Assembly (NCBI RefSeq): GCF_001482305.1
Contig: NZ_LOHP01000043.1
Span: 1 to 64,000 of the forward strand
Source of the DNA: Leucobacter sp. G161
Lineage (GTDB): Bacteria; Actinomycetota; Actinomycetes; Actinomycetales; Microbacteriaceae
Direction: 5' to 3'
Length of the DNA stretch: 64,000 bases
Numbering within the stretch: position 1 is the stretch's first letter; the number at the start of each line of letters is the position of its first letter. Shown here in pieces: positions 1,057 to 42,033 of this stretch. Below the pieces are notes generated by a model, which was given only the letters and a program-made list of their open reading frames with translations, did not search any database and had not been told where the DNA came from. A program made the translations under genes and the position numbers.

Positions 1057-3568
<2,512 letters not shown>

Positions 3569-5306: not shown

Positions 5307-5354
5307 GTGCACTCCTTTGGGTCGAATCGCTCACAGTCTATGACTCGCGCGATA

Positions 5355-13800: not shown

Positions 13801-13840
13801 GGCGCTACCGCCCGTCGGCGCTACCGCCCGTCGGCGCTAG
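13801..13840. repeat. 16-bp tandem repeat, two and a half copies
   Basis: The unit GGCGCTACCGCCCGTC occurs at 13801-13816 and 13817-13832, with a partial third copy that contains the regulator's stop codon. It lies in the 3' region of the PucR gene. Confidence 0.7.
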
Positions 13841-15522
13841 CGGTCGAGCAGCCGCAGCTGCAGCATGGCCGCGAACCGATCGTCAGCGTCGTCGAGATCG
13901 ATGCCGCTGATCTCGACCGCGCGTCGCAGGCGATAGCGGAAGGTGTTCGGGTGCACGAACAGCGTCGCCGCTGCCTGACCGACATCGCCGAAGTGATCGA
14001 ACCAGGCCCGCAGCGTATCCACGAGGTGACCCTTCTGCTTGCTATCGTGCGCGAGTAGCTTGGGGACGGGGCCGGTGAACTCGTCTCCGCGCACCACCAT
14101 GAGGTCCTTGAGCTCACGCATCAGCACGGCAGCGTGGACGTCAGCGAGGCGCGCGACGCGTGAGAGTGGCTTCGCCGTTCCGCCCTGCCCCGGTTCAAGC
14201 AGCGCTCGCAGGACGCGTCGCGTCGAGCTTCGCGATCGCGCGATCCCAGCAATATCGTTGGCGGGCGGTCCCACCGCGATCACGGCAGACATCCTGCCAC
14301 CCACGCGGTCAAGGAAGTCCTCCATCGTGCGGACCGCGTGAGCTCCGCCAGGGTCATGCGGCTCGGGCAGGATGCCATACGCAGTATCGCCCAGCTGCGC
14401 GACAGCGGATCCCGGGCGCATCGCAGACAGGTGCACCGCGAGCGCGTCAGTGAACCGCTCGCGCTCTGCCATCAGCGCCTGGTCAGCGCCCTCCGTCGCA
14501 GCGTGGTCGGTGCCAGTGAGCACCGCCGCGACCACACACACCGACTGGCCAGCAAGGTTGAGCCTGGAGAGCGCCTCGCTCGCGCCCGAACCGCCCTCGA
14601 GTGCAGTGCTGAGCAGCTCGGCGCGCAGCCGCCGTTGCACGTCAGCGCCGGCACGCAGCCGCAACAGGTGGAGCGCGACAAGCTTGGCTGCGTCACGCAG
14701 GGTAACGGTGCGCTCGTGCGTGAGCGGCCCGTCCATGGCTGCCCAAATGGATCCCAGCACCTCGTCGCCAGCTCGGATCCCAATCGCGACGCGCTGCGTC
14801 GACCCGTCGTTTGCAGACACGACCGAATCAATAACACCCGAATCAATCACGACAGGGTCATCGCTCCGGTACAGGTGCCGAAACACGCCGCGTTCGGTGA
14901 GTCGTTCCGTGTAGCGTTCCGGGACCCGGCGACCGATGATCGTTTCCGCTCGCGCGCTATCCGCTTCTTCTTGCCTCCCTGAAAACGCAAGCACACGTGA
15001 GGATCGGTCCTCGATCGTGACAGGCGCATCGAGCAGCGAAGCAATCGCGTTCGCGACGGCGAAGAGATCACCCGAGGGGATCCCGCCGAGGGAGTCGACA
15101 TGAGTGTCACCGACATCGTCTTCTGCGAGCAGCGTGCGGAGGAGGGCCGCGAGCTGCGTCCAGGTCGCACCGCGGGCGAGCCCGAGCACGACCACTCCGC
15201 GTTCGTCCGCTGCCTGGCGCACCTCGTCGGTTATTTCCACCGGCGAACGCACCACGACAGCTGCGACCGACTGATCCGGAAGCCCAGCAATGAGCTCAGC
15301 GAGCGCCTGGCTGCCGTGCACCCCAACCCCGAGCACGAAGGCGTGCTCGGGGTACAGGGGTTCATCGAACGGATCGAAGATCACGACTCCGCCAACGGGC
15401 TGCTGCTCGTCGGCACGGCCGTGCACCACCTCAAGGAGCGTGATCCCCAAATCGTCCAGGATTCGCGCGAAGCTGAACCGGGGAAAGCGGGGCTCGTGAC
15501 GGTCACTCATGAAGGGAAGCAT
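13837..15522 (-). CDS. PucR/CdaR-family transcriptional regulator
   Basis: A 561-residue regulator. The N-terminal half (about residues 15-170) is the PucR-like ligand region, a GGDEF-like/GAF-type middle follows, and the C-terminal 60 residues are the PucR/CdaR helix-turn-helix: FGDVGQAAATLFVHPNTFRYRLRR. Such proteins control purine, sugar-diacid or amino-acid catabolism in response to a pathway metabolite. It is the last gene of a long same-strand run encoding peptide uptake and D-amino-acid conversion, 36 bp after the racemase gene, so it probably controls that run. Two starts are possible: ATG 15522 or ATG 15510 (MSDRHEPRF). Neither has a clear ribosome site. Confidence 0.85.
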   Translation of the reverse strand: MLPFMSDRHEPRFPRFSFARILDDLGITLLEVVHGRADEQQPVGGVVIFDPFDEPLYPEHAFVLGVGVHGSQALAELIAGLPDQSVAAVVVRSPVEITDEVRQAADERGVVVLGLARGATWTQLAALLRTLLAEDDVGDTHVDSLGGIPSGDLFAVANAIASLLDAPVTIEDRSSRVLAFSGRQEEADSARAETIIGRRVPERYTERLTERGVFRHLYRSDDPVVIDSGVIDSVVSANDGSTQRVAIGIRAGDEVLGSIWAAMDGPLTHERTVTLRDAAKLVALHLLRLRAGADVQRRLRAELLSTALEGGSGASEALSRLNLAGQSVCVVAAVLTGTDHAATEGADQALMAERERFTDALAVHLSAMRPGSAVAQLGDTAYGILPEPHDPGGAHAVRTMEDFLDRVGGRMSAVIAVGPPANDIAGIARSRSSTRRVLRALLEPGQGGTAKPLSRVARLADVHAAVLMRELKDLMVVRGDEFTGPVPKLLAHDSKQKGHLVDTLRAWFDHFGDVGQAAATLFVHPNTFRYRLRRAVEISGIDLDDADDRFAAMLQLRLLDR

Positions 15523-15558
15523 ATCGCCCGCTCACTCGCTCTCCTCGGCTGCACGCGC

Positions 15559-16659
15559 CTAGACAGCAACCCACTCGACGCTCGTTGTGAACGCTTCGAG
15601 GAGTTCGGGAATCGGCGCGACGCCGAGCCCCGGACCCGTTGGAACCGTCAGGTGACCGTCTTCCATCACCCAGGGCTCGGTGATATCAGTCTCGTAGAAC
15701 CGGCTGCTTGAAGAAACATCGCCTGGCAGCGTGAATCCGGGAAGCGAGGCGAGCGCAATGTTCGCTGCGCGGCCGATGCCGGATTCGAGCATGCCGCCAC
15801 ACCACACGGGCACGCCAGCGGCAACCGCGAGGTCGTGGATACGACGGGCCTCAAGGTAGCCGCCAACCCGGCCAGGCTTGATGTTGATGACGCTCGTTGC
15901 GCCGAGTCGGATCGCTGCGGCAGCAGTCTGCGCAGAGGTGATCGACTCGTCAAGACATATCGGAGTCTTCATCATTTTCGCGAGATCAGCGTGACCGACG
16001 ATGTCCTCTTCTTCGAGGGGTTGCTCGATGAGCAACAGATCGAAGTCGTCGAGCTTCGCGAGATGGCGCGCATCGGCGAGCGTGTACGCGGTGTTCGCAT
16101 CGACCTGCAGCTGGACATCGTCGCCAAAGCGCTCACGCACCGCACGCACAGGTTCGATATCCCACCCGGGTTCGATCTTCAGTTTGATTCTGACGTAGCC
16201 CTCGTCGATGTATCCGCCGACGGCGTCGAGCAGCTCGGGAATCGAGTCCATAATGCCGACCGAGACGCCGCAGGGCACGCGATCCTTCACCGATCCGAGT
16301 TCACGACCGAACGACCGCCCGCTCGCCCGCAGCTCTGCGTCGAGCACTGCGGTCTCGAGCGCCGCTTTTGCCATCGGGTGCCCCTTGAACGGGTGCAGGG
16401 CCTGTCCGACGCCAATCGCGTCACGCACACCCGAGATCGCGGAAATGAAGTAGCGTTTCATGATGTCGGCGGCGCCGTCGGTGTACTCGGGAGAGTAGAG
16501 CGGATCACCGAGAGTGACGCACTCCCCCCAGCCCTCTGCTTCGTCGGTCACGACTTTGACGAGCAAAATGTCCCGCTCAGTCTGCGTGCTGAACGATGTC
16601 CGGAATGGCGAGACGAGCGGCAACCCAACACGGCGCAGCTCAAAGCCCTCAATCTTCAT
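15559..16659 (-). CDS. N-succinylamino acid racemase / o-succinylbenzoate synthase (enolase superfamily)
   Basis: A 366-residue enzyme of the muconate-lactonizing subgroup. Catalytic and metal residues are all present: KLK at 159-161, metal ligands Asp187 (QVDAN), Glu212 (LIEQP) and Asp237 (CLDES), and the second base Lys261 (NIKPGRVGG). The spacing matches the Amycolatopsis/Geobacillus NSAR-OSBS group. NSAR inverts N-succinyl-D-amino acids to the L form. The menaquinone role is less likely because no men genes are near, whereas an N-acyltransferase and a deacylase gene adjoin it. The start at 16659 overlaps the upstream acyltransferase gene by 11 bp, suggesting translational coupling. It is probably cytoplasmic. 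Confidence 0.85.
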   Translation of the reverse strand: MKIEGFELRRVGLPLVSPFRTSFSTQTERDILLVKVVTDEAEGWGECVTLGDPLYSPEYTDGAADIMKRYFISAISGVRDAIGVGQALHPFKGHPMAKAALETAVLDAELRASGRSFGRELGSVKDRVPCGVSVGIMDSIPELLDAVGGYIDEGYVRIKLKIEPGWDIEPVRAVRERFGDDVQLQVDANTAYTLADARHLAKLDDFDLLLIEQPLEEEDIVGHADLAKMMKTPICLDESITSAQTAAAAIRLGATSVINIKPGRVGGYLEARRIHDLAVAAGVPVWCGGMLESGIGRAANIALASLPGFTLPGDVSSSSRFYETDITEPWVMEDGHLTVPTGPGLGVAPIPELLEAFTTSVEWVAV

Positions 16660-17464
16660 CAGTCTTCTCCTCTGTTGATGCGTGTTCCAAGATGTAGCCG
16701 ACTCCACGCTCGAACCCGATGATCCGTGCGCCGTCGTTGAGGACGTCAGTGAGCGTCTCACGCAGCTCGCCGCGCCACTGTTTTGCCCGTTCAGGATCGG
16801 AGACGCGGAGCGCCTCAATGTCGTCGGGGACGGCGATCGTATGTCCCCCCGCGTCGCTGGGCACAGGCTGCGCCCCCGCGGCCAAGGCCGACACGTGCGG
16901 ATCGCGGAGGTACCAGCGCACGAGCAGGCGGTCGCTGAGATCGCCCGCGTTAATCGTGTCGGCCATCGCCCCGTAGAAGTTTTCGAGGTACTCGACGGGC
17001 AGCGCGCCAAGTTTCCTGATGTTGAACGCCGCGTTGCGCGACACGAGTGGATCGTACGTCCACTCAACGACGTCGATGCCCCGCTCGAGCGACCAGGCCC
17101 GCTGATGCAGCTTCAGCGCGTAGCCAATCGACCTCCCAACAGTGCCAGGCAGCACTCCGGCGATGTGGCTGTGCAGCGTGCGCCGCTCGGGGCTGGAGTG
17201 CACCCCGAGCGATGCTCCGACAAGTTCGCCGTCGATGAACGCGCCGCCAATGTAGTTCCCAGTCTTTCCGAGCACCCGCAGAAACTCCGTGGGGACGACC
17301 GGATTCTCCGCGGTGCGGCCCCAGATCACCGCCAGCAGCTCAGCCACTTGGGCTTCCTCATCGCGGCCGTGCATCTCGCGCACGGTCACCCCTGCGACGG
17401 CGGCCACCCGTGCCGCATCAGCGAGCGCCTGATGCACGTCTTCTCGTGAGATTTCAGTCATCAC
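16649..17464 (-). CDS. GNAT-family N-acyltransferase (putative D-amino acid N-succinyltransferase)
   Basis: A 271-residue protein of the COG3375-like GNAT group. The acyl-CoA-binding and core strands appear as GGAFIDGELVGASLGVHS and GVLPGTVGRSIGYALKLHQRAW. The segment WTYDPLVSRNAAFNIRKLG and the following YLENFYG are family hallmarks. In Geobacillus kaustophilus a GNAT succinyltransferase is encoded with an NSAR and an M20 desuccinylase, and the three together convert D- to L-amino acids irreversibly. The same three families are adjacent here in the same order. The stop overlaps the racemase start by 11 bp and the start overlaps the M20 gene's end by 4 bp. The acyl donor is inferred to be succinyl-CoA by analogy. 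Confidence 0.82.
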   Translation of the reverse strand: MMTEISREDVHQALADAARVAAVAGVTVREMHGRDEEAQVAELLAVIWGRTAENPVVPTEFLRVLGKTGNYIGGAFIDGELVGASLGVHSSPERRTLHSHIAGVLPGTVGRSIGYALKLHQRAWSLERGIDVVEWTYDPLVSRNAAFNIRKLGALPVEYLENFYGAMADTINAGDLSDRLLVRWYLRDPHVSALAAGAQPVPSDAGGHTIAVPDDIEALRVSDPERAKQWRGELRETLTDVLNDGARIIGFERGVGYILEHASTEEKTDED

Positions 17465-18582
17465 TCACCCGCTCCGGATTCAGTCAAGACGTCGGCCATG
17501 AGCGCGCCGAGCAGCCTGGTTCGTGGTTCGATCTCCTCGACGAGCACATGCTCAGTGTCAGCGTGTGCGCCGCCGCCGACCGCGCCGAGGCCGTCGAGCG
17601 TTGGTACGCCTATGCCGGCGGTAAAGTTGCCGTCGCTCGCGCCGCCGACGGCAACACCGGTGAGAGCCGCGAGGCCGAGGTGCGTCGCAATCGTCTGAGC
17701 CCGGGCGAACAGATCCGCGGAGGACTCGAGCTCAAGCACAGGACGATTCACCCCGCCGATCACTGCAAGCTCAGCCCCAGGCAGCACGGGCGTGAGTGCG
17801 CGCATTGCCTCGTCGACGCGGCGCTGCTCAGCACCGCTGCGGGCGCGCCCATCGACTTTGCAGGAGGCACGCGCCGGCACCGTGTTGCTCGTCGTACCGG
17901 AGATCGCGGCAGTCGGTGTCACCGTGGTGCCGAGCTCGGCGTTTCCGAGTGCGGCGATGGCGAGCAGCTGGTGAGCGAGTTCGACCGACGCGTTGACGCC
18001 CTTCTCCGGTTCGAGCCCGGCGTGCGCAGCGCGGCCGTGCACCACAAGTTCGTAGAGCGAGACGCCCTTGCGTTCGAGTTTCAAGGCGCCACCGTCTGCT
18101 GCTGCCTCGAGCACGAACGCGGCACGAGCTCCACGCGCGCTCTCCTCGATGAGCCCGCGCGAGGTGGGTGAGCCGAGTTCCTCGTCGCCCGTGACGATGA
18201 GGGTGACGCCGTCGCGGTCCTCGAGCGCAGCGATGGCGTGCATCGCCATCGCGAGCCCGGTCTTCATGTCGAAGCTGCCCGGCCCGGTCAGGACCCCGCC
18301 GCTGACTGCAAAGGGCAACCGTTCCAGTGTGCCGAGCGGCCACACCGTGTCGTGATGCGCGACCAGCAGCACGCGCGTGGTCGCCCCAAAGCTCCACCTC
18401 AGGTGGTTCACACCGTCAAGCACGATGCGCTCGGGAGCGACGCCCAGGAGCGATTCACCCACCTCCGCGACCAGATTCGCGGAGGCCGCGACCGCGGCAT
18501 GATCGTCCGAGGGCGATTCGCATTCAACGAGGGTGTGTATCGTCGCGACGATGTCTGCGAGACGTGCGGTGTCCGGGGTCAT
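17461..18582 (-). CDS. M20-family metallo-deacylase (putative N-succinyl-L-amino acid desuccinylase)
   Basis: A 373-residue protein of the ArgE/DapE/CPG2 family. Two-zinc-site motifs are visible: AHHDTVWPLG, the bridging Asp in GSFDMKTG, the catalytic Glu pair in TGDEELGSP, and the distal His in GGGAHADTEHV. The dimerisation lid domain lies at about residues 165-275. In the NSAR pathway this step releases the free L-amino acid from its N-succinyl form. Carboxypeptidase G2-like or N-acyl-amino acid hydrolysis is the alternative. The ATG at 18582 has AAAGG about 9 bases upstream; earlier in-frame starts lie in unrelated sequence. The gene end overlaps the acyltransferase start by 4 bp (ATGA type). 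Confidence 0.85.
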   Translation of the reverse strand: MTPDTARLADIVATIHTLVECESPSDDHAAVAASANLVAEVGESLLGVAPERIVLDGVNHLRWSFGATTRVLLVAHHDTVWPLGTLERLPFAVSGGVLTGPGSFDMKTGLAMAMHAIAALEDRDGVTLIVTGDEELGSPTSRGLIEESARGARAAFVLEAAADGGALKLERKGVSLYELVVHGRAAHAGLEPEKGVNASVELAHQLLAIAALGNAELGTTVTPTAAISGTTSNTVPARASCKVDGRARSGAEQRRVDEAMRALTPVLPGAELAVIGGVNRPVLELESSADLFARAQTIATHLGLAALTGVAVGGASDGNFTAGIGVPTLDGLGAVGGGAHADTEHVLVEEIEPRTRLLGALMADVLTESGAGE

Positions 18583-18649
18583 AGCGACGGACCTTTCTTC
18601 ATGAGTACCGGTGGAAAGTGTTGGCGAGGACGCGCGTGCTTGGGGTCGT

Positions 18650-20125
18650 TCATCGGAGCTGGCCTCGCAGGCCTCTGCCCGGGTAGGCGTCGAGGACAAC
18701 GTCCTCGTCACGCACGACGAACTCCCCCGCAACGAGGACGTGTGCGATCCCGATCGAGGGGCGCGTGCTGTTGAGATAGGTGGCGCGGTCAGTGACCCGC
18801 TGCGGATCAATGACCACGATGTCGGCATCGGCGCCAACGGCGAGGTGGCCCTTCGCCCGAAACGCAGCGGTGGTCGAGTCCATCACCCGCGCGGGGAGGT
18901 AGCTGCAGCGTCGGAACGCCTCACCCCAGGTCCACACCTGCTGCTCCCGGACCATGAGGCGGAGCGAGCGCGCAAACGTTCCTGCGGTTCGCGGATGCGT
19001 GGTGCCCCCCGCTGGCAGCGGCCACTCGCGCGTATCGGTTGAGCGGTCCGGCCAGGTGACGTGCATCGCGTCAGACGCGACGATGCTGTCAGGGAACGCG
19101 AGCGAACGAGCAAGTAGTGCCTGATCATGCGCGTCAGTATCGTCGAGGAACTCCACGATGCATGCGGCGCCAGGGTCCGTGCTGCGGACCTGCCGCAGGT
19201 GGGCCTCGTCAACAATGCGCTCCCCCGACTCGACGAGCACAATATTGGCGGGGCCGATCCCCCACACGTGCAGCCGCTCGGGCGCGAGGAACGCCGCCCC
19301 GATCCCGGTACTACCTGCGCCGTATGGATACGTCTCGACGGTCATGTGTGCGCCGCCGGAACGAGCGCGCTCGATAACGCCGAGCGTCCGGTCGACGTGC
19401 CGCCGGGAAGTGCTGTTCACGTGACAGTGATGAACCTGTCCGCCAAACTCCATCGCTGCGCGCGCGGCCTCCTCGGTCCCGTCAATGGGGGTCCCGGGAT
19501 CGGACTCGACGATCTCACGAACGTGAGTAAACGTTGGCACCCCAGCGCGGGCAGCCAGCTCGTTCACCGCGAGGTACTCCCGCGGGTCAGACTGCGGCGC
19601 GTACCCCTGCAACACCCCGATCCCGAGGGCACCATCGGCGAGCTCCTCCTCAAGCCTGCCGAGCCACGCGCCGAGCTGTGTTGGGGTGGAACTTGCCTGC
19701 CAAGCGGGGTCTCCCAGCATGGACAGCGCACCAACGAAGTTCGCGTCGGCCGGCCGGCCGGAAAGCACCTCGGCGCGCGCCATGCCCCAGGACGCGGAAA
19801 AGCCAAAGTTAATGGGCCTCCCCTGCTTCGCGGCTTCGGCGTAGGCGATTTCCACTGGCAGTAGTCCGGCCTCGAGTTCGAGTGCTGTTGTGACCCCGTC
19901 GCGCGCCTGCAGACGCTGCCCCGCGATCGAATTCACATGGCTGTGCAAGTCAACGAATCCGGGGCCAACGACCATTCCGGTGACATCGACTTCCGTGGCC
20001 TGTTCTGTCTGAAGTTCGAGCCCAACCGCAGCGATCTTGCCGTCTTCGATGAGGACATCGGCGATGCGATCCGATCCGGTTCCGGGATCAATGACACGCC
20101 CGCCACGCAACAGCACTCGAGGCAT
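18650..20125 (-). CDS. Amidohydrolase, N-acyl-D-amino acid (D-glutamate) deacylase-like
   Basis: A 491-residue protein of the Amidohydro_3 group. The beta-sandwich N-terminus (LLRGGRVIDPGTGSDRIADV) leads into the metal site DLHSHV, then GVTTALELEAG, which is characteristic of the N-acyl-D-glutamate deacylase/D-aminoacylase group. Later metal-site pieces are THVRE, HHCHVNST and SDAMHVTW. These enzymes remove N-acyl groups from D-amino acids in the cytoplasm. Its start codon overlaps the stop of the upstream S12 hydrolase gene by one base (TGATG), so the two are translated together. Its presence with NSAR suggests that acylated D-amino acids or muropeptide fragments are among the substrates. 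Exact acyl and residue preference is unknown. Confidence 0.8.
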   Translation of the reverse strand: MPRVLLRGGRVIDPGTGSDRIADVLIEDGKIAAVGLELQTEQATEVDVTGMVVGPGFVDLHSHVNSIAGQRLQARDGVTTALELEAGLLPVEIAYAEAAKQGRPINFGFSASWGMARAEVLSGRPADANFVGALSMLGDPAWQASSTPTQLGAWLGRLEEELADGALGIGVLQGYAPQSDPREYLAVNELAARAGVPTFTHVREIVESDPGTPIDGTEEAARAAMEFGGQVHHCHVNSTSRRHVDRTLGVIERARSGGAHMTVETYPYGAGSTGIGAAFLAPERLHVWGIGPANIVLVESGERIVDEAHLRQVRSTDPGAACIVEFLDDTDAHDQALLARSLAFPDSIVASDAMHVTWPDRSTDTREWPLPAGGTTHPRTAGTFARSLRLMVREQQVWTWGEAFRRCSYLPARVMDSTTAAFRAKGHLAVGADADIVVIDPQRVTDRATYLNSTRPSIGIAHVLVAGEFVVRDEDVVLDAYPGRGLRGQLR

Positions 20126-21549: not shown

Positions 21550-21644
21550 ATCGGTGACTCCTAAAATCTGGTGCGGTGAAGAGGGGTGCTGGGCGGTTGG
21601 GGCGCGCCGAGAGGTGGTCTCCCTGCCCGCCCCAACCGGAGCAG

Positions 21645-23228: not shown

Positions 23229-23370
23229 AGTGTGTTCCTTCGTGTTAAGGCTCAGGTCTTAATCATCTCGGCACAGCGCGCGAAGCACTTCGGCGTGCTC
23301 CACAATTCTCCGGACCGATATTGTCGCCCTGAACAATTGTTGGGCAAGAGGTGAGTAGTGGACAGGTGAG
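23229..23370 (-). promoter_or_regulatory. Gap upstream of the binding-protein gene with a palindrome
   Basis: The 142-bp space within an otherwise tightly packed operon contains the perfect 10-bp palindrome AACAATTGTT (23332-23341). It also contains an ATTGTC motif (23320-23325; GACAAT on the coding strand) also found upstream of the permease and class A hydrolase genes. An internal promoter or operator is likely but unproven. Confidence 0.4.
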
Positions 23371-24150
23371 TTAGAGCGACGGCACTGCCGCGATCAGCTC
23401 GCGGGTGTAGTCATGCGTGGGCGCGGTCATCACGTCAACCGTGTCTCCGACCTCCACAAGGGCACCGCTACGCATCACCGCGACGCGATCGCAGACGATC
23501 CGCACGACCGCCAGATTGTGACTGATAAAGAGCATCGAGAACCCGAGTTCCCGCTGCAGCTCCTTGAGGAGATTGAGCACCGAGCCCTGCACGGAAACAT
23601 CGAGCGCCGACGTAATCTCATCGGCGAGGATCACCGCGGGCTTGGCGGCAATCGCTCGCGCGACCGCGACGCGCTGGCGCTGACCGCCAGACAACTGTGC
23701 GGGCATGCGCAGCGCCGTCTCGGCAGGGAGCGCAACGGCGCGGAGGAGATTCGCAATCTCGTCCTTGCGTGCCCGCAGCTGCGGCGTCGATGTCCCCTCT
23801 CGACGGTGTGCGGCGATGAGCGCTTCGTCGAGCGACTGCCCGATGCTGCGTCGGGGGTTAAAGCACGACTGCGGATCCTGGAAGATCATCTGCACTCGGC
23901 GCCGCTCGCGGAGAACCGCTCCGCGTGCGTGCGAGATTTCGGTGTCCCCCAGCAGGATCCGCCCACCCGATGGCTCAGCAAGCCCCACCGCTGCGCGCGC
24001 AATCGTGGACTTGCCTGACCCGGATTCTCCGACCAGGCCGAGCACTTCGCCGGCTCGGAGGGTGAGGTCCACTCCGTCGACAGCGGTAAACGCGGACGCG
24101 CCATGCCCGTAGGTGATGCTGAGCGACTCGAAGGTGAGCTGGTTACTCAT
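23371..24150 (-). CDS. Peptide ABC transporter ATP-binding protein (DppF/OppF-like)
   Basis: A 259-residue ABC ATPase. Walker A is GESGSGKST at 41-49, the Q-loop is in QMIFQDPQSCFNPRR, the signature is LSGGQRQR, Walker B is ILADEITSALD (Ile replaces the usual Pro) and the H-loop is ISHNLAVV. It energises the oligopeptide importer formed with the permease-ATPase fusion and the other permease. It lacks the C-terminal oligopeptide_HPY zinc motif that many OppF proteins carry. Its start overlaps the fusion gene's end by 4 bp, and 142 bp separate its stop from the binding-protein gene. Confidence 0.92.
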   Translation of the reverse strand: MSNQLTFESLSITYGHGASAFTAVDGVDLTLRAGEVLGLVGESGSGKSTIARAAVGLAEPSGGRILLGDTEISHARGAVLRERRRVQMIFQDPQSCFNPRRSIGQSLDEALIAAHRREGTSTPQLRARKDEIANLLRAVALPAETALRMPAQLSGGQRQRVAVARAIAAKPAVILADEITSALDVSVQGSVLNLLKELQRELGFSMLFISHNLAVVRIVCDRVAVMRSGALVEVGDTVDVMTAPTHDYTRELIAAVPSL

Positions 24151-26018
24151 CGCGCTCCTCCTTCAAAATCAATCAGGCTAATAGCGCCGGTTGGTGGCAG
24201 CACGGCCTCAAGCACGCCGATTGGCGAGGTTCCCGTGAAGTCTGCGTCGTCTGGGATCGAAGCCATTGGTTCACCCCGCGGGCTCTCCATGGTCGGCACG
24301 GTCGCCATGAGCGCCCGCGTGTATGGATGCACCGCGTGACCAGCCCGCAACTCGTCGGCGGCAATGTCCTCGACGAGTCTCCCCCGATACATCACGAGCA
24401 CTCGCGTGCACAGCGACGTGACCACCGCAATGTCGTGCGACACGAACATGATGGCGGTGCCGTCGACTTCGTTGATCCGCTTGAGCAGCTCGAGAATGCC
24501 CGCTTGCACGGTGACGTCGAGCGCAGTCGTTGGCTCGTCGGCAAGGATGAGCGACGGCTTCCCAATGAGGCCGGCAGCGATCATCGCGCGCTGCCGCATG
24601 CCGCCAGAGTATTCGTGTGGGTACTGCGAGTATCTGCGCTCTGCGTCCGGGATCCGCACGGCGTCAAGCCTGTCGATGGCGGCCTGCTTTGCTTCGCTGC
24701 GGTCCATGTCGAGGTGCAGCATGCCGGTCTCCGCGACCTGAGTGCCAACATGCAGCGCAGGGTTGAGCGACGACATGGGGTCCTGGAACACCATCGCCAG
24801 ACGCGTTCCAAAATGGTGATCGAGCGATTTCGGGTGACCGTCCTCGCTGAGCACGAGATCCTCGCCGTCGAAGCTCGCCGAGCGAGCCGTGACGTGCAGC
24901 GGGGATTCAACGAGCCCAGCGATCGACATCAGCGTGAGGCTCTTGCCCGAGCCGGACTCACCAACGACGCCGACGATCTCGCCGCGCGCAATATCGAATG
25001 AGACGCCGTCGACGAGCGGTCGCAGCTCTTCCTCGCCCTGCGGCGCGTACACCTTTAGCCCGCGCACCGAAAGCACGAGTTCGCTCGCTGCATCCGTGGC
25101 AATCTGGCCGGTAGCCGAAGCTGCCGCGTCGACCGCCGCCGAACGGGATCGCGCGAGTCGCTTCAGCATTCTGCTCGAGAGGGTGCGCTGTGCGCCGACG
25201 GCGAGCACCCGGTTGAGGACCTCACCGAGCAACATGAATGTCATCCCCGCAAGAATGATGGCGACACCGGGCACCAGCGCCGCAGCCGGCGTAATGAAGA
25301 TGCGGCTCACGCCTTCATTCAGCATCCGCCCCCAGTCGTACTCCGGAACCTGAATGCCGAGGCCGAGGAACGACAGCCCCGCGAACGCGAGGAGTGTCCC
25401 GCCCGCGGTGAGCGCGGCATTCACGAGCAGTGGATCGCGAATGTTCGGCAGTACGTGCCGCAACACGATCTGCCGCTTCGGAACCCCCAGCACGAGCGCA
25501 GCCGACACGTAATCGCGCCCCCACACTGATGCGGCGAGGTTGTGCACGAGACGCGCATAGTTCGGCATCATCGCGATCGCAATCGCAAGGCTCGCCGCAA
25601 ACCCACTCTGACCGAGGATCACCGAGAAGGCGATCGCCAGCAGGAGCCCAGGAAACGCGACACCGATATTAATGCCGGCCACCAACCAGCGCCCCGGTGT
25701 GCCGCCGAGCACGAGCGGGAGGAGACCGAGCAGCACTCCGCAGACGATCCCAACGGCCGTCGCGCTCAGCGCCATGACAACCGAGAGCCTCGTGGCGACG
25801 AGTGTACGCAGCAGAATGTCGCGACCGCTGCCATCGGTGCCGAAAATATGCTCCGCGCTCGACGGCTGCGAAATCATACTGGTGTTCGTGACAGCGGCTT
25901 GCTGCCCCCAGATGATGGGAGCGAAGATCGCGAGGAACGCGAGCGCGGCAAACGATACTGCCGCAACGATGCCGAGCGGTGAGCGCAGCGCGGCGAGAAA
26001 ACGATGGGTCGTGGTCAT
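24147..26018 (-). CDS. Fused permease and ATPase of a peptide ABC transporter (DppC-DppD)
   Basis: A 623-residue two-domain protein. Residues 1-285 are a DppC/OppC-like permease: one N-terminal membrane helix, the HIFGTDGSGRDILLR signature, five further helices and the EAA-type loop (ALVLGVPKRQIVLRHVLPN). Residues of about 312-600 are a DppD-like ATPase: Walker A GESGSGKS at 353-360, then FQDPMSSLNP, SGGMRQR and LADEPTTALD. The reading frame runs through both with a linker of about 30 Ala/Arg/Ser-rich residues. Usually these are separate proteins of about 290 and 330 residues. Four-base overlaps join it to the genes on both sides. A single base error removing a stop is unlikely given the clean linker. 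Confidence 0.9.
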   Translation of the reverse strand: MTTTHRFLAALRSPLGIVAAVSFAALAFLAIFAPIIWGQQAAVTNTSMISQPSSAEHIFGTDGSGRDILLRTLVATRLSVVMALSATAVGIVCGVLLGLLPLVLGGTPGRWLVAGINIGVAFPGLLLAIAFSVILGQSGFAASLAIAIAMMPNYARLVHNLAASVWGRDYVSAALVLGVPKRQIVLRHVLPNIRDPLLVNAALTAGGTLLAFAGLSFLGLGIQVPEYDWGRMLNEGVSRIFITPAAALVPGVAIILAGMTFMLLGEVLNRVLAVGAQRTLSSRMLKRLARSRSAAVDAAASATGQIATDAASELVLSVRGLKVYAPQGEEELRPLVDGVSFDIARGEIVGVVGESGSGKSLTLMSIAGLVESPLHVTARSASFDGEDLVLSEDGHPKSLDHHFGTRLAMVFQDPMSSLNPALHVGTQVAETGMLHLDMDRSEAKQAAIDRLDAVRIPDAERRYSQYPHEYSGGMRQRAMIAAGLIGKPSLILADEPTTALDVTVQAGILELLKRINEVDGTAIMFVSHDIAVVTSLCTRVLVMYRGRLVEDIAADELRAGHAVHPYTRALMATVPTMESPRGEPMASIPDDADFTGTSPIGVLEAVLPPTGAISLIDFEGGAR

Positions 26019-27037
26019 GACTTATCCAATGCAGTGCGCGGGTCCAACAGAATGAGGACGATATCGATGACGAGGTTGATCAGCAGCACCACCGCTCCGT
26101 AGAAAATGATGATGGCTTGGACAAGCGGGTAGTCCTTCTCCTGGATCGACTGCACGATCACGCCCCCGAGTCCTGGCCACGCGAAGATGCTCTCGACGAG
26201 CACGGTTCCCGCGATCATTCCACCGAGCGCCATACCCGAGATCGTGAGGGTCGAGGTGAGCAGGTTCGGTAGGACGTGCTTGCCGTACAACCTGACTGCT
26301 GGCATTCGCCGCGACCGGGCGGTGCGCACGTAGTCCTGCTGCAGCACCGAAAGCGTTTCGGCCCGAACGATTCGCGTGAGTCCCGCAGCAGGCCCGAAGG
26401 ACAGCGCGATGACCGGCAAGATGTACGACGAGAAGCCGCTCCTGCCGGCGACTGGCAGCAGGTCGAGCGTGACCGCAAACAGGTAGACCAGGAGAATTCC
26501 GGCGAGAAACTCTGGAATCAGTGCGAGCGCGGCAGTCACCGAGTTGAAGCCCGCGTCGACGCCTGGCCGCCGCCCTCCGTGGGTGAGTGCGCCGAACGTC
26601 AGCCCGAGGCAGACCGCGACAATCAGTGAGATTGCTACGGCTGCCCACGCGATTTCGAGCGTTGCAGGGGCGCGCTGCATAATGACGTCGATAACGGGCA
26701 TCCGCGAGCTGATCGATTCACCGAGGTCTCCGGTAAACAGCCCCTTCCAGAACGACAGGTACTGCACAAATACCGGGCGATCGAGCCCGAGTTCCGCGCG
26801 CCGCGCTTCGACGGCCTCGGGCGAGGCGTTCTCGCCAACCGACACGCGCGCCGGATCGCCGGGAATGAGCTGCATGAGCAGAAACGCCACGGTGATAAGC
26901 ACAAACATCGAAACTACGAAGTAACCGCCGCGCCGAATCAGATAGGCCACCCACGGTTTGCTGACGAGGAACGACTCCCGCTTCTGCTTCGTGATCGGTG
27001 GGTCGTCCACTTCGGGACTCGCAGAAATAGCTGGCAT
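26015..27037 (-). CDS. Peptide ABC transporter permease (DppB-like)
   Basis: A 340-residue integral membrane protein of the DppB/OppB family. It has an N-terminal helix (GGYFVVSMFVLITVAFLL), the periplasmic-side segment LIPGDPARVSVGENASPE, five more helices and the EAA loop around YVRTARSRRMPAVRLYGKHV. The ATG at 27037 is chosen because AGGAG lies 5 bases upstream; an ATG eight codons earlier has no such site. It is the first gene of the minus-strand operon, divergent from the D-aminopeptidase gene, and overlaps the fusion gene by 4 bp. Confidence 0.92.
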   Translation of the reverse strand: MPAISASPEVDDPPITKQKRESFLVSKPWVAYLIRRGGYFVVSMFVLITVAFLLMQLIPGDPARVSVGENASPEAVEARRAELGLDRPVFVQYLSFWKGLFTGDLGESISSRMPVIDVIMQRAPATLEIAWAAVAISLIVAVCLGLTFGALTHGGRRPGVDAGFNSVTAALALIPEFLAGILLVYLFAVTLDLLPVAGRSGFSSYILPVIALSFGPAAGLTRIVRAETLSVLQQDYVRTARSRRMPAVRLYGKHVLPNLLTSTLTISGMALGGMIAGTVLVESIFAWPGLGGVIVQSIQEKDYPLVQAIIIFYGAVVLLINLVIDIVLILLDPRTALDKS

Positions 27038-27248
27038 GCGCTCTCCTCGCCGTTGGGTCATAGCTGCCTACTCAGTATTGCGGAGAACCAAATCCCCCCG
27101 CATTGTCGGACACTCCAGGCAACCTCCGCAAAAACTGTCCGGTTGACCAACATCCCCTGTGGGTTTCCTTCTAGGCTTCGAAGTTGGAAGCCTACGGCTT
27201 CGCCGCGAACAGAGTGTTCCGCGGGGCTCACCCGGGAAAGGTCAACGC
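27038..27248. promoter_or_regulatory. Divergent control region between the peptide operon and dppA
   Basis: About 210 bp serve both directions. CGCATTGTC (27099-27107) and GGTTGACCA (27141-27149) both recur upstream of the class A hydrolase gene near 29.1 kb. CGCATTGTC lies 62 bp from the permease start codon and 63 bp from the hydrolase start codon, in the same orientation. On the minus strand it reads GACAATGCG, which could be a -10 element or an operator. The imperfect inverted pair TTGTCGGACA/TGTCCGGTTG lies at 27103-27112 and 27136-27145. Confidence 0.4.
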
Positions 27249-28091
27249 ATGCGCGTCTATATTTCAATCGACATGGAGGGCGTCGCTGGTATCGCCACAA
27301 TGGATCAGGTCGTGCGGGGCGGTCACGGCTATCCTCGCGCCCAGCACCTCATGACCGGCGAGGCGAACGCCGCGATCGCCGGGGCCTTCGCGGGCGGCGC
27401 GACAGCTGTCACGATCAATGACAGCCACGGCACCATGGACAACCTCATCCACGAGGATCTCGATCAGCGCGCTCGCGTCGTCTTCGGGAGCCCAAAGATG
27501 GATTGCATGGCCGAGGGCATCGACAAGGACCATGATGTCGCACTGTTCATCGGCTACCACGCGGCCGCCGGCGGACCGGGAGTCATCGCCCACACGTTCT
27601 CCTCGCTGTTCAACGAGGTGCGCGTCAACGGCCGAGCCGTGTCAGAGGCCGACGTCAACGCGCTGCAGGCAGCCGCTGTCGGCGTCCCGGTCGCGCTACT
27701 CACGGGAGACAACATCATCTGCGCCGACATTGCGGCGACGCTGCCTGGCATCGAAACGGTCACCGTGAAGGAGGCGCACGGCTACAACGCCGCCGATTCC
27801 ATTTCCCCCACCGAATCACGCCGCCTCATCGGCGAGGCCGCTGCACGCGCGGTCGCTGGCGCACGCACGCTGCACGTGAGCGAGGTCCCCGAGCGCATGG
27901 AGATCGAGATCGATATGCCCAACATTTCGGCAGCCGAGCTCGCCCAGATGATCCCGACCTCCGAGCGCACCGCGATCCGCACCATCAAGGTCGTTGCGCA
28001 CTCTCCGCGCGAGGCAGTGAACTTCATCACCGCGTGCTACCAGTTCGCGGCGAACTCGATGCGCGCGATGCTCCCGCTCATCAACCGCTAA
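27249..28091 (+). CDS. dppA: D-aminopeptidase, M55 family
   Basis: A 280-residue zinc peptidase like Bacillus subtilis DppA, which releases N-terminal D-residues from D-peptides such as D-Ala-D-Ala. All the residues reported for DppA are at the same numbers here: metal ligands Asp8, Glu10, His60, His104 and Glu133, and the nucleophile His115. It has no signal peptide and is cytoplasmic; the family forms decamers. The start ATG at 27249 has GAAAGG 7 bases upstream. It is divergent from the peptide importer operon and ended by a strong hairpin. Together with the racemase pathway it supports D-peptide use as a nutrient. Confidence 0.95.
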   Translation: MRVYISIDMEGVAGIATMDQVVRGGHGYPRAQHLMTGEANAAIAGAFAGGATAVTINDSHGTMDNLIHEDLDQRARVVFGSPKMDCMAEGIDKDHDVALFIGYHAAAGGPGVIAHTFSSLFNEVRVNGRAVSEADVNALQAAAVGVPVALLTGDNIICADIAATLPGIETVTVKEAHGYNAADSISPTESRRLIGEAAARAVAGARTLHVSEVPERMEIEIDMPNISAAELAQMIPTSERTAIRTIKVVAHSPREAVNFITACYQFAANSMRAMLPLINR

Positions 28092-28125
28092 CGTCACCTC
28101 CCCGCAGTGGGCGCGCACAGACGCT

Positions 28126-28163
28126 CATGCCTCAGGCCTCCCTCACGGGAGGCCTGAGGCATG
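28126..28163. terminator. Bidirectional terminator between dppA and the class A hydrolase gene
   Basis: A perfect 17-bp stem (28126-28142 with 28147-28163) and a 4-base TCAC loop, between convergent genes, 34 bp after the dppA stop and 13 bp from the hydrolase stop. Confidence 0.9.
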
Positions 28164-28176
28164 TCACAGGGCGCTG

Positions 28177-29088
28177 TTACGCCCGCACGTTGAGCGCGTC
28201 GGACAGCAGCCGCGCGACCGTGCCAATGACGCGGTCTGCCTTTGGATTGCGTGAGAGCAGCTCCGTGCTGCGCAGGAACACCGCAATGGCGTGCCGCCTG
28301 CCATCCGCAAACTCAACAACACCGATCTCGTTGCGCACGATACCGAGGGTGCCGGTCTTCCCGCTGATCTTGACATCGTCCTGCGGAAAGCCGGAGCTCA
28401 GACGGTGCGGCCACACCTGCAAGCCAAGAATTCTGCGCGCCTCCGCGCATGCCGCCGGCGTCGCCGCGGCATCCGTCCAGAGCAGTTCGAGGAGGCGTGT
28501 CGCCTCGCGCGGAGTCGAGCGGTTGGTCTTCGCTGGCGTGCTCGCCGCAAACTCCGAGGCTGTGGCGACATCGTTGAGCGTCAGCTCTTCAGTGAGCGAG
28601 AGACCAGCCGCCTGCAGATCATCAGCGATGCTCGCAAAGAGCGTCGCACAGTCGCCCACAAGCTGCGTCCCTGGCAGCCCGAGTTCCGCCATCGTCGCGT
28701 TCACGCGGTCAACACCGACGAGTTCGACGACAATGTCGGTCGCCGCGTTGTCGCTGACCGTGATCATCGAAGTGGCGATATCGCGCAGCGACCATTCGGT
28801 CTCATCTGAGAACACGCTCAGTCCGGTTGGCCCACGCGTGACGCTCGCCGGCGACACGAGGATCCGCTGGGCGGGATCGAGTTCGCCCGCGGCGACCTGA
28901 CGCACGTATTCGAGGAGCACGGGCACCTTAAACACCGACGCGGTCACCGTGGGCTCATCGAAGTGGTACCCAACTTCTGCGCCCGAGTCGAGGTCGCGCG
29001 CGTGCGCGAACACGCTCACGCCTGCCGCAGTTGCGGCCTCAGCGATGGCCTCGGAAACTGATTGTTGGTCGATCGTCTGCTGTGTCAT
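28177..29088 (-). CDS. Class A beta-lactamase-like serine hydrolase without signal peptide
   Basis: A 303-residue protein carrying every class A landmark: SVFK at 51-54, SDN at 112-114, the omega-loop ELTLN starting with Glu168 (ExxLN), and KTG at 244-246. Unlike resistance beta-lactamases it begins MTQQTIDQQSVSEAIAEA with no secretion signal or lipobox, so it should stay in the cytoplasm. It lies inside the D-peptide/D-amino acid gene group and shares upstream motifs with the importer operon. An intracellular amidase or peptidase acting on D-configured substrates is therefore more likely than antibiotic defence. Export by a non-classical route cannot be ruled out. Confidence 0.8.
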   Translation of the reverse strand: MTQQTIDQQSVSEAIAEAATAAGVSVFAHARDLDSGAEVGYHFDEPTVTASVFKVPVLLEYVRQVAAGELDPAQRILVSPASVTRGPTGLSVFSDETEWSLRDIATSMITVSDNAATDIVVELVGVDRVNATMAELGLPGTQLVGDCATLFASIADDLQAAGLSLTEELTLNDVATASEFAASTPAKTNRSTPREATRLLELLWTDAAATPAACAEARRILGLQVWPHRLSSGFPQDDVKISGKTGTLGIVRNEIGVVEFADGRRHAIAVFLRSTELLSRNPKADRVIGTVARLLSDALNVRA

Positions 29089-29173
29089 AGTCGCAGACTA
29101 ACGCTTCCGCGACGCACCAGCTTGGTTGACCAGGCCAAGAGCACCTCACCCGCATTGTCTCGCAACACAACAA

Positions 29174-29200
29174 ACCGCCCGGAGCACTGCTCCGGGCGGT
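29174..29200 (-). terminator. Terminator of the amino-acid dehydrogenase gene
   Basis: A 12-bp perfect stem (ACCGCCCGGAGC with its complement) and a 3-base loop, followed on the minus strand by a T-rich run, 20 bp beyond the dehydrogenase stop. Confidence 0.85.
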
Positions 29201-29219
29201 CAGTCGATGCGTCTGCAAC

Positions 29220-30299
29220 CTATCGCGCGAGCATGCCCTCAACGACACGGTCTGCGGCGGCAACGGTGGTGATCCCCTGCTCATGCGCCTCGTCGAAGAC
29301 GCGCGCGAGCGTGCCGCCGATCGCGTCGATTCGCGCGAGCCGAGCATCGAGGTCGCCCTCCGCGCCCAGGTAGAGCACCCCGCCGGCGTTCACGAGGTAG
29401 TCCGGCGCGTAGAGGATCCCGCGGCCGGCGAGCTGCTCGGCGCCGTTCGGCTGGGCGAGCTGGTTGTTCGCGGGGCCGACAACGGCGGCAGTATCGAGCT
29501 CGTCGATGACCTGCGGGGAGAGCATGCCGCCGACACCAGCGGGCATGAACACGTCTGCCGGCACGAGGTGCGCGGCTGCTGGCTCGGCCCACTCGGCCCC
29601 GAGCTCTGCGGCGAGCTCGCGCTTCGACTCGTTGATGTCCGAGAGTGTGAGCTGCGCACCCTCGTCGGCGAGACGGCGCGCGAGCGATGAGCCGACGTGC
29701 CCCAGGCCGACGATCGTGATCTTGCGGTCGCGTGCGTCTGCTGCCCCGTGCGTACGACGGAGCGCCTCGAGCAGCGCGGAGTGGACGCCGCGTGCGGTGA
29801 AGTCACCGGGATCGCCAAGCCCACCCTGGTCCTCGGGCAGCCCGACGGCGTGCGCGGTGCGCTCGGCAACGACGGCCATGTCCGCGGCTGTCGTGCCCAC
29901 GTCCTCGGCAGTCATGTACGCGCCGCCCAGCGCCTCAACAGCATCCCCGAGATCCAGGAACGCGTCGCGACGCTGATCGCCCTCGAGCTTCTGGCCGGGA
30001 GCGAGGGCGATGACCGACTTGCCGCCACCTGCGGCGAGGCCCGCGAGGGCGTTCTTCGATGTCATGCCGCTCGACAGGCGGAGCGCGTCGGCGACTGCTT
30101 CGTCCCAGCTGCCGTAGTTCCAGACGCGGCAGCCACCGAGCGCCGGGCCAAGGACGGTGCTGTGCACGGCGATGATGATCGTCAGGCCCGAGCGCGGCCC
30201 GGTCGAGACGTTCAGGTGTTCGTGGGTGAAGCCGGTCAGGGACTGCGATGCCGCAGCTGTCGAATCAACCGAGGTCGCGAGCGTGGATGCAGGTGTCAT
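29220..30299 (-). CDS. Leucine/valine/phenylalanine-type amino acid dehydrogenase
   Basis: A 359-residue NAD-dependent oxidative deaminase of the Glu/Leu/Phe/Val group. Seen: GPALGGCRVW, the glycine-rich MTSKNALAGLAAGGGKSVI carrying the substrate and catalytic lysines, MTAEDVGTT, then the Rossmann GLGHVGSSLA and the C-terminal PDYLVNAGGVLY. It converts L-branched-chain or aromatic amino acids to 2-oxo acids plus ammonia. It is divergent from an Lrp-type regulator (91-bp gap), the usual arrangement for such dehydrogenases. Next to the D- to L-amino acid genes it would supply the catabolic exit, or the phenylalanine route towards phenylacetate-type acids. Substrate preference is not readable by eye. 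Confidence 0.88.
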   Translation of the reverse strand: MTPASTLATSVDSTAAASQSLTGFTHEHLNVSTGPRSGLTIIIAVHSTVLGPALGGCRVWNYGSWDEAVADALRLSSGMTSKNALAGLAAGGGKSVIALAPGQKLEGDQRRDAFLDLGDAVEALGGAYMTAEDVGTTAADMAVVAERTAHAVGLPEDQGGLGDPGDFTARGVHSALLEALRRTHGAADARDRKITIVGLGHVGSSLARRLADEGAQLTLSDINESKRELAAELGAEWAEPAAAHLVPADVFMPAGVGGMLSPQVIDELDTAAVVGPANNQLAQPNGAEQLAGRGILYAPDYLVNAGGVLYLGAEGDLDARLARIDAIGGTLARVFDEAHEQGITTVAAADRVVEGMLAR

Positions 30300-30390
30300 G
30301 TCAAGAATTCAATCGGCAACTGGCAGTTCAAACAAGTGATCGTTGTCGCATTGATCGAAGTGACCGATACGTATCGCTTCTAATGACGCT
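30300..30390. promoter_or_regulatory. Divergent promoter region with 12-bp palindrome (Lrp site candidate)
   Basis: The perfect palindrome CGATACGTATCG (30365-30376) lies between the dehydrogenase and lrp-like genes. Repeated TGATCG words at 30338 and 30351 surround it. The location fits an Lrp/AsnC operator controlling both directions. Confidence 0.45.
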
Positions 30391-30855
30391 ATGTTGATCA
30401 TTATGTATCTCCTCGACGCCACCGACCGGCGGATCCTCGCTGCCCTCGACGCAGACTCACGCGCGACCGTGCAGGCGATCGCGTACGAACTCGGTCTCGC
30501 ACGCGGCACCGTACACACGAGACTTGATCGGCTGCAGCGCTCGGGCGCGCTCAAGGCGCACTCGCCGCGACTCCACCCGCCGGCGCTCGGCTGGCCGCTG
30601 CGGGCGCACATCACCGCCGAGGCGAACCAGGACAAGCTCGACCTCACGATCGCCGACCTCGAACAGATCCCAGAGATCATTGAGTGTGTCGCGGTGTCCG
30701 GGCAGAGCGACCTCTCGATCGAGATCGTTGCGCGCGACGCCGACGATGTCTACCGAATCACGCAGGCCATCATGAAGTGCCGCGGGGTACTCCGCACCGC
30801 GACGTCGATCATGCTGCGCGAACTCATCTCGCGGCGCCAACACCAGCTGCTCTAG
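30391..30855 (+). CDS. Lrp/AsnC-family transcriptional regulator
   Basis: A 154-residue regulator with an N-terminal winged HTH (DATDRRILAALDADSRATVQAIAYELGLARGTVHTRLDRL) and a C-terminal AsnC ligand-binding domain ending IMLRELISRRQ. Two start codons are possible, 30391 or the ATG four codons later (MYLLDATDRR), which matches the family N-terminus better. Being divergent from the amino-acid dehydrogenase gene, it most likely activates it in response to an amino acid, as BkdR/Lrp-type proteins do. Confidence 0.88.
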   Translation: MLIIMYLLDATDRRILAALDADSRATVQAIAYELGLARGTVHTRLDRLQRSGALKAHSPRLHPPALGWPLRAHITAEANQDKLDLTIADLEQIPEIIECVAVSGQSDLSIEIVARDADDVYRITQAIMKCRGVLRTATSIMLRELISRRQHQLL

Positions 30856-39732: not shown

Positions 39733-39848
39733 CGACGCTTCGGTCACCGCGAGTCAACTCCGTTGCGCCCACGTGCAAGACCCAGCAGGGTGTGCCCTGC
39801 GATACTCAGCGTGGTTCACCATCTTTCAACGGCGACAAGGACGATTCA

Positions 39849-41942: not shown

Positions 41943-42033
41943 TCCGCCCGCACCCACAGCCACCTCACATCACCCACAGGTGCCCCGCCTAACCTGGGGC
42001 CGAACACGAATCCTTTCGAAGAGGAGCAGAACA

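Follow-up and report, generated by a model that had tools for sequence, protein, structure and literature searches.

What does an actinomycete do with an N-succinylamino acid racemase (NSAR) encoded among a peptide transporter and several peptidase-like hydrolases? Leucobacter sp. G161 raises this question in a 64,000-nucleotide stretch of its genome (contig NZ_LOHP01000043.1, positions 1 to 64,000; this whole stretch is called the window here), where genes for a PucR-type regulator, NSAR, a GNAT acyltransferase, an M20 metallohydrolase, an amidohydrolase, an S12 serine hydrolase and a Dpp-type peptide ATP-binding cassette (ABC) transporter lie together on one strand. An earlier note on this DNA had proposed a complete-looking salvage region for D-peptides and D-amino acids. 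We conclude that these genes probably form an inducible salvage operon for D-residue peptides, which would be converted to L-amino acids. The conclusion draws on the gene content, gene order and conservation of the cluster, the catalytic residues of NSAR, the fold of the GNAT protein and the separate MenC genes of genomes that carry an NSAR.

Profile searches of the window proteins placed the named genes within 13837-30855 in the families that the earlier note had given them (Table 1). The DppC-D fusion is real, with BPD_transp_1 at 90-270 and ABC_tran at 337-498 of a single open reading frame (ORF) of 623 amino acids. Overlaps of 1-11 bases between DppB and DppC-D, DppC-D and DppF, S12 and amidohydrolase, M20 and GNAT, and GNAT and NSAR fit a single operon, from which the M55 gene diverges at DppB. 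The divergent group described in the earlier note has to be reduced: M55 and Lrp are indeed on the plus strand, while the class A-like hydrolase and the dehydrogenase are on the minus strand with the operon. Gene starts were inferred from homologues, giving NSAR the ATG at 16659 (not the ORF start at 17067), M20 a start at 18582 and M55 at 27249. DppB most likely starts at 27037, as the upstream ATG at 27061 occurs in neither of two Leucobacter relatives; the sequence GAGGAGAGCGCATG around 27037 is identical in all three aligned sequences.

Table 1. Features of the NSAR cluster in the window, followed by two examples of the S9-S12 fusion from loci L090 and L089 in their own coordinates.
Feature	Position	Strand	Basis or remark
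PucR-type regulator, last gene of operon	13837..15522	-	HTH_30 80.4 bits, GGDEF_2 38.8 bits
NSAR, NSAR/OSBS subfamily	15559..16659	-	583 bits to 1sja, 70.5% identity
GNAT acyltransferase, presumed D-amino acid N-succinyltransferase	16649..17461	-	predicted GNAT fold; 11-bp overlap with NSAR
M20 metallohydrolase, presumed N-succinyl-L-amino acid desuccinylase, carboxypeptidase G2-like	17461..18582	-	Peptidase_M20 83.8 bits, M20_dimer 55.1 bits
D-acylase-like amidohydrolase (NF006560/PRK09061)	18650..20125	-	620.8 bits, cut-off 340
S12 serine hydrolase, no signal-like segment	20125..21549	-	PF00144 195.9 bits; hydropathy
Family 5 solute-binding lipoprotein	21645..23228	-	SBP_bac_5 158.6 bits; lipobox LTAC at residue 17
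DppF-type ATPase	23371..24150	-	ABC_tran 104.7 bits; PRK11308 230.2 bits, under cut-off 408
DppC-DppD fusion (permease and ATPase)	24147..26018	-	both domains in a single ORF
DppB-type permease, revised start	26015..27037	-	BPD_transp_1 and its N-domain; start from 3-sequence alignment
Interrupted palindrome, candidate operator, between DppB and M55	27172..27194		11-nt arms, 91% complementary
M55 D-aminopeptidase (DppA-like), accessory	27249..28091	+	Peptidase_M55 295.2 bits; 146 bits to 1hi9
Class A-fold serine hydrolase, BlaB-like, accessory	28177..29088	-	Beta-lactamase2 190.6 bits; best PDB match 2wuq
Amino-acid dehydrogenase	29220..30299	-	
Lrp	30391..30855	+	
S9-S12 fusion, locus L090	5844-9998		
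S9-S12 fusion, locus L089	6600-9995		

Named genomes were scanned with an alignment of four M20 proteins, and the best 80 of 511 confirmed loci, the nearest ones, were analyzed with 10-kb flanks (shorter in 13 of the 80), genes being matched by identity cut-offs. GNAT was matched in 69 of these M20-selected loci, NSAR in 68, PucR in 62, S12 in 54, the solute-binding lipoprotein in 47 and DppB in 41, and the order PucR-NSAR-GNAT-M20 on one strand was found in 58, counting matched genes only. The amidohydrolase follows with 24 loci (6 genus labels), the class A-like hydrolase with at least 23, M55 with at least 5 and Lrp with 2; the counts for the class A-like gene and M55 are lower bounds because these genes lie near or beyond the end of the flanks. 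The 80 loci come under 27 genus labels, four of them metagenome-assembled, unnamed or duplicate, and NSAR occurs in 22. Transporter, lipoprotein and S12 are thus spread over many genera, and the D-acylase-like and class A-like genes over a smaller number. Across the class, sampled evenly at 345 genomes, M20 (counted at E up to 1e-100) was found in 53 and NSAR in 96; 44 have the two together, where the margins predict about 15 (Fisher odds ratio 22.6, p 3.8e-20, with no correction for relatedness). Of the 58 M20 matches, 39, from 37 genomes, had an NSAR no more than 10 kb away; this count used 65 of 103 NSAR places and is unaffected by the other 38, which are in genomes without type-A M20, except one on another contig of genome G318. 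Among 199 genomes of the family, M20 (E up to 1e-90) was found in 3, always with NSAR in the same locus. The order counts and the co-occurrence put the cluster far from chance.

The search across genomes that the earlier note had asked for therefore recovers, across many genera of actinomycetes, a GNAT-NSAR-M20 unit accompanied by a peptide ABC transporter and hydrolases of beta-lactamase fold, and a lack of co-conservation among the neighbors, which that note had named as fatal to its proposal, is not what the core displays (58/80 ordered, with NSAR in 68 and GNAT in 69). Two relatives, Leucobacter komagatae (L083, NSAR 95-96% identical to that of the window) and Leucobacter UT-8R (L084), have the genes from PucR through M55 and the class A-like gene in the order of the window. 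Leaving aside the dehydrogenase and Lrp, the claim of a full set occurring together holds in these two.

The residues K163, D189, E214, D239, K263 and R266 of NSAR (1sja numbering), of which we take the two lysines to be catalytic and the three acidic residues to bind the metal, are conserved in the window protein and in 120 of 120 homologues; for this count and for the S12 and class A-like motif counts below, one best match per locus was taken. R266, being present in the whole set, is useless as an NSAR discriminator. As a separate observation, NSARs about 59% identical adjoin varied genes, for example an aldo-keto reductase, PAP2 and glycosidases in locus L061. The best PDB match of the M20 protein is carboxypeptidase G2, and residues H76, D105, E134, E135, E159 and H340 are invariant in 7 aligned M20s.

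The GNAT gene matched neither Pfam nor NCBIfam at E 0.001, nor any PDB sequence at E up to 1; its own weak family match is to Acetyltransf_6 only, at E 0.087 and under the cut-off of that family. Acetyltransf_1 was matched by 14 of 19 aligned members of the group (E up to 1, best 5.2e-8), the window protein not being among the 14. Its AlphaFold model (pLDDT 90.7) gave GNAT folds as best structural matches (Z 16.5, root-mean-square deviation 2.2 over 151 aligned positions, residues 25-192), and by this modeled fold the protein is a GNAT. The 50 matches listed in each fold list show acetyltransferases and no named succinyltransferase, which proves nothing.

We infer all substrates and stereospecificities, and the direction and regulation of the pathway, in the scheme that follows; the chemistry of the trio is borrowed from Geobacillus, where a GNAT succinyltransferase, NSAR and an M20 desuccinylase reportedly form a pathway. 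Judging by their families, the lipoprotein and DppB, DppC-D and DppF would import short peptides. The S12 enzyme would free residues from these in the cytosol, with help from the amidohydrolase, M55 and the class A-like enzyme in the window, and from an S9-S12 fusion protein in relatives. The GNAT would N-succinylate the free D-amino acid, NSAR would racemize the N-succinyl-amino acid, and M20 would strip succinate from the L-form only, giving one-way flux to the L-amino acid. The PucR protein, encoded by the operon itself, is the likely sensor. Conservation of the adjacent trio supports the D-to-L route of the earlier note, though not the dehydrogenase exit with which it had been drawn (see below).

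The S12 protein has the motifs SVTK73, YCN164 and HGG313, and the patterns SxxK, YxN and HxG are found in 60, 60 and 61 of 61 homologues; IS11 and alkaline D-peptidase rank as its top two matches among solved structures. M55 aligns over residues 1-260 with B. subtilis DppA (1hi9), near its full length, and scores under the NCBIfam DppA equivalog cut-off (195.8 of 430). The best PDB matches of the amidohydrolase are N-acyl-D-glutamate deacylase and D-aminoacylase. A simple hydropathy check found no lipoprotein-type signal in the S12, class A-like, amidohydrolase and M55 proteins. The fused DppC-D is present in 35 of the 80 M20-selected loci (16 genus labels), and their ORF set yielded no unfused copy over 40% identity.

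Several observations weigh against a dedicated salvage operon. The NSAR of locus L032 (genome G079) is 79% identical to that of the window, but no GNAT or M20 was matched in 20 kb around it, and a type-A M20 is absent from its genome at E 1e-90. No NSAR was matched in 12 of the 80 M20 loci. In the class sample, NSAR is missing from 9 of 53 M20 genomes and M20 from 52 of 96 NSAR genomes, and 19 of the 58 M20 matches have no NSAR within 10 kb; in the family, 34 of 52 NSAR loci have a GNAT nearby and 14 an M20. In the amidohydrolase, the HxH, His, His and Asp of 1rjp align, and the bridging Cys aligns with Ala; the metal site of the D-aminoacylase family presumably consists of HxH, two His, Asp and this Cys, which is thus not kept. 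Moreover, if this neighboring enzyme really deacylates N-acyl-D-amino acids, it could reverse the first step of the pathway and set up a futile cycle, unless it rejects succinate as the acyl group or acts on a peptide-like amide.

Recycling of murein peptides, with import of wall fragments containing L-Ala-D-Glu, is the strongest of the other explanations we weighed and, in our judgment, an unlikely one. It gains from the M55 and S12 families, which include wall-peptide enzymes, and from a second NSAR lineage, here called type B, found at 11 loci of the family (L072-L082). The type B NSARs are 41-46% identical to the window protein and form a branch of their own with support 100 in a quick, midpoint-rooted tree, in which six unlabeled rows fall within the M20-linked side. 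Like the window, all 11 loci have NSAR, GNAT and M20, and most have solute-binding protein and Dpp genes (transporter genes in 8, after M20 in 7 and on the other side in L076). They differ in that NSAR-GNAT is divergent from M20 in 11/11 and in their partners, namely an S66 LD-carboxypeptidase (6/11), an M19 dipeptidase (6/11) and a stand-alone SIS protein of about 220 amino acids (10/11); S12 was matched in 4 and the class A-like hydrolase in 3. From these partners, wall peptides are a good guess for the substrate of type B. The window-type loci differ on this very point: the S66, SIS, GATase and PabC-like genes of type B have no match in the window or within the flanks of the 80 M20 loci, M19 is matched in only 4 of the 80 at 30-31% identity, S66 has no match in the genome of the window at E 0.001, and family scans recognized no lytic or amino-sugar gene in the cluster.

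The D-residue peptides that we favor as substrate must also be set against N-acyl-D-amino acids, for which the amidohydrolase would be the entry enzyme and the Dpp-type system the importer of acyl-amino acids. The amidohydrolase resembles N-acyl-D-glutamate deacylase and is encoded directly upstream of M20 in 20 of the 80 loci. Its restricted occurrence (see above) speaks against such a role, as does the gene that replaces it: in 30 of the 80 loci the place upstream of M20 is held by a fusion, in one ORF of about 1,110 amino acids, of an S9 acyl-peptide-hydrolase-like part and an S12 part. We counted 34 such ORFs over 900 amino acids in 32 loci (15 genus labels), lengths being taken from the longest ORF and hence overestimates. 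With this length filter, amidohydrolase and fusion occur together in one locus only, a Kutzneria, and neither was seen in 17 NSAR loci. None of the best 60 PDB matches spans both parts of the fusion, each covering one. Our reading is that amidohydrolase and S9-S12 protein would be alternative partners of the S12 enzyme, and a peptidase among the alternatives favors peptides as the substrate. We regard N-acyl-D-amino acid salvage as improbable, somewhat more so than murein recycling.

The beta-lactamase-fold hydrolases, together with the patchy presence of the system (no NSAR match at E 1e-60 in the 3 other same-genus genomes of the family sample), could also point to detoxification, directed at D-residue peptide antibiotics or at D-amino acids that neighbors release. 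An importer fits detoxification poorly, and family scans recognized no known resistance gene or exporter in the unit, so that we give this explanation very little weight. The class A-like hydrolase itself has the motifs SVFK51, SDN112 and KTG244. Class A beta-lactamases carry the general base motif ExxLN (Glu166) usually about 36 residues after SDN; the window protein has ELTLN 56 residues past SDN, and ExxLN after SDN was found in none of the 19 homologues with SDN (4 of 23, both Leucobacter among them, lack SDN in the cut sequence and are left out). With ExxLN not at the usual spacing, a beta-lactamase assignment is unsupported. The cytosolic class A hydrolase of the earlier note keeps its fold and, by the hydropathy check, its lack of a signal, and is misplaced only in strand.

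The remaining question is whether NSAR serves as an o-succinylbenzoate synthase (OSBS) in menaquinone synthesis; if it worked in this way alone, the proposal of the earlier note would fall. NSAR does match the menC_lowGC_arch model, at 303.2 bits over a cut-off of 200.65. The genome has a MenC of its own (PRK02901-type, 439.5 bits, cut-off 288) on another contig than the cluster, about 1 kb from MenB and near MenA and a MenE-like gene that is under its cut-off, and no men gene was seen among the NSAR neighbors scanned. Every one of the 50 NSAR-positive genomes in the family sample has a MenC over its cut-off. So do 40 of the 50 named genomes with the operon, all 12 Amycolatopsis included, in a census that covered 50 of the 68 NSAR-bearing loci. 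The ten operon-bearing genomes without MenC (six Streptomyces, Catellatospora, Actinocatenispora, Nucisporomicrobium and Streptosporangium) likely use the futalosine route, which is known from Streptomyces. Gene content thus predicts that NSAR is dispensable for menaquinone. The structurally characterized Amycolatopsis enzyme 1sja is 98.9% identical to an A. rubida NSAR encoded in the same operon type, in a genome with MenC; an excerpt of a 2014 review (PMC4215206) gives OSBS as the biologically relevant function of the Amycolatopsis enzyme, a statement that, as worded in that excerpt, is hard to keep given the near identity of 1sja to an operon-borne protein. With separate MenC genes in the genome of the window, in the family and in the named genomes, we reject a physiological OSBS role for NSAR as highly improbable. 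Another enolase-superfamily gene of the genome, at 6335-7450 of locus L163, matches cis-3-hydroxy-L-proline dehydratase with 327.9 bits of a 500-bit cut-off.

Salvage of D-residue peptides remains the reading we prefer, without the dehydrogenase that the earlier note had put forward as a deaminating exit. A match to the dehydrogenase at E 0.001 was found in 7 of 9 named genomes searched, two being weak fragments, and, judged from contig numbers and coordinates, it adjoins the cluster only in L. komagatae, about 0.7 kb past the locus end at the class A-like gene; Leucobacter UT-8R carries the remaining genes of the cluster and gave no match. Without general linkage in these nine genomes, it is rejected as a general part of the system. 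Between the dehydrogenase and the class A-like gene, on the downstream side of the former at 29201-29173, is a 13-bp GC-rich terminator-like hairpin with a T-rich tail. This hairpin alone is used, with caution, from a scan in which promoter-like sites (2 against 1.5 expected) and terminator-like sites (8 against 8.4 expected) were no commoner than chance. In window-like order, both dehydrogenase and Lrp fall outside the 10-kb flanks of the 80-locus count. An Lrp-type gene 47-50% identical occurs in two Microbacterium loci (L105, L124) beyond PucR, on the opposite side of the operon from that in the window. As for regulation, the palindrome at 27172-27194 is preserved in part in two Leucobacter relatives, and elsewhere in the genome its pattern does not recur within 2 mismatches (once at three); PucR is the obvious candidate to bind it.

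Around the cluster, an aldehyde dehydrogenase gene (12349-13707), convergent with PucR, is also found by the cluster in both Leucobacter relatives (L083 and L084, 95% and 86% identity), and a phenol 2-monooxygenase-like gene lies at 30886-32790. Farther off in the window are argininosuccinate synthase-like and lactate/malate dehydrogenase-like genes side by side (1057-3568), a helicase with DUF3418 (4920-9392), a copper amine oxidase adjoining an aldehyde dehydrogenase (39792-43455) and an FAD-linked oxidase (48213-49592).

The cluster can be compared with four known systems. It shares with the Geobacillus NSAR pathway the three enzyme families, here adjacent and co-directional, and would be expected to share the one-way D-to-L logic reported there; it adds PucR, a peptide ABC transporter with the DppC-D fusion and further hydrolases, and it differs in a GNAT without a Pfam match over cut-off and a carboxypeptidase G2-like M20. 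The Amycolatopsis NSAR-OSBS (1sja) is 70.5% identical to the window protein with the catalytic residues kept, and the A. rubida gene is in a like operon (L108), which differs in having no M55 in the stretch seen, two class A-like genes and another order of transporter genes. With the dppA-dppBCDE/ykf region of B. subtilis, the window has in common an M55 DppA, a dipeptide transporter and an enolase-superfamily racemase. The B. subtilis ykf L-Ala-D/L-Glu epimerase acts on a dipeptide, whereas the window has an NSAR as its racemase, alongside GNAT and M20, and M55 was found in at least 5 of 80 relatives. BlaB (2wuq), presumably from Streptomyces cacaoi, gave the class A-like gene its top match among solved structures (103.2 bits); the depositors of BlaB named it a beta-lactamase regulatory protein, and the window gene sits with peptide-uptake and NSAR genes. 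Among openly licensed PMC papers searched for the NSAR operon, its regulation or its physiology, none of the listed titles and abstract openings describes the operon.

In excerpts of a 2021 review (PMC8142540), an 'AmyNSAR' is tabulated, and specialists may already regard some NSARs as not OSBSs. The same excerpts list a rate of 42,000 per M per s for AmyNSAR with N-succinyl-phenylglycine, and rates of 350 and 1,111 for the Amycolatopsis enzyme with N-acetyl-methionine, a weak comparison of N-succinyl with N-acetyl substrates as the amino acids differ. The flipping chemistry is already known, and its association here with peptide import and peptidases suggests the purpose of this long-studied racemase.

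A wider reading, which we offer tentatively, is that racemization gated by succinylation is a general actinomycete way of using D-peptides that was assembled at least twice, once in the window type, with S12, S9-S12 or D-acylase front ends and the DppC-D fusion transporter, and once in type B for wall peptides, with LD-carboxypeptidase and M19. The Amycolatopsis racemase would then be dedicated to peptide salvage, and the S9-S12 protein may have two peptidase heads that together serve peptides of mixed L/D composition.

Enzyme promiscuity is commonly illustrated with the Amycolatopsis NSAR/OSBS. Operon context and separate MenC genes argue for D-amino acid salvage from peptides instead of OSBS as its function, and the context suggests a class of substrate, along with specific partner genes and a regulator. 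As constituents of cell walls and non-ribosomal peptides, D-residues abound in nature, and a widespread route dedicated to them would, if true, bear on nitrogen turnover.

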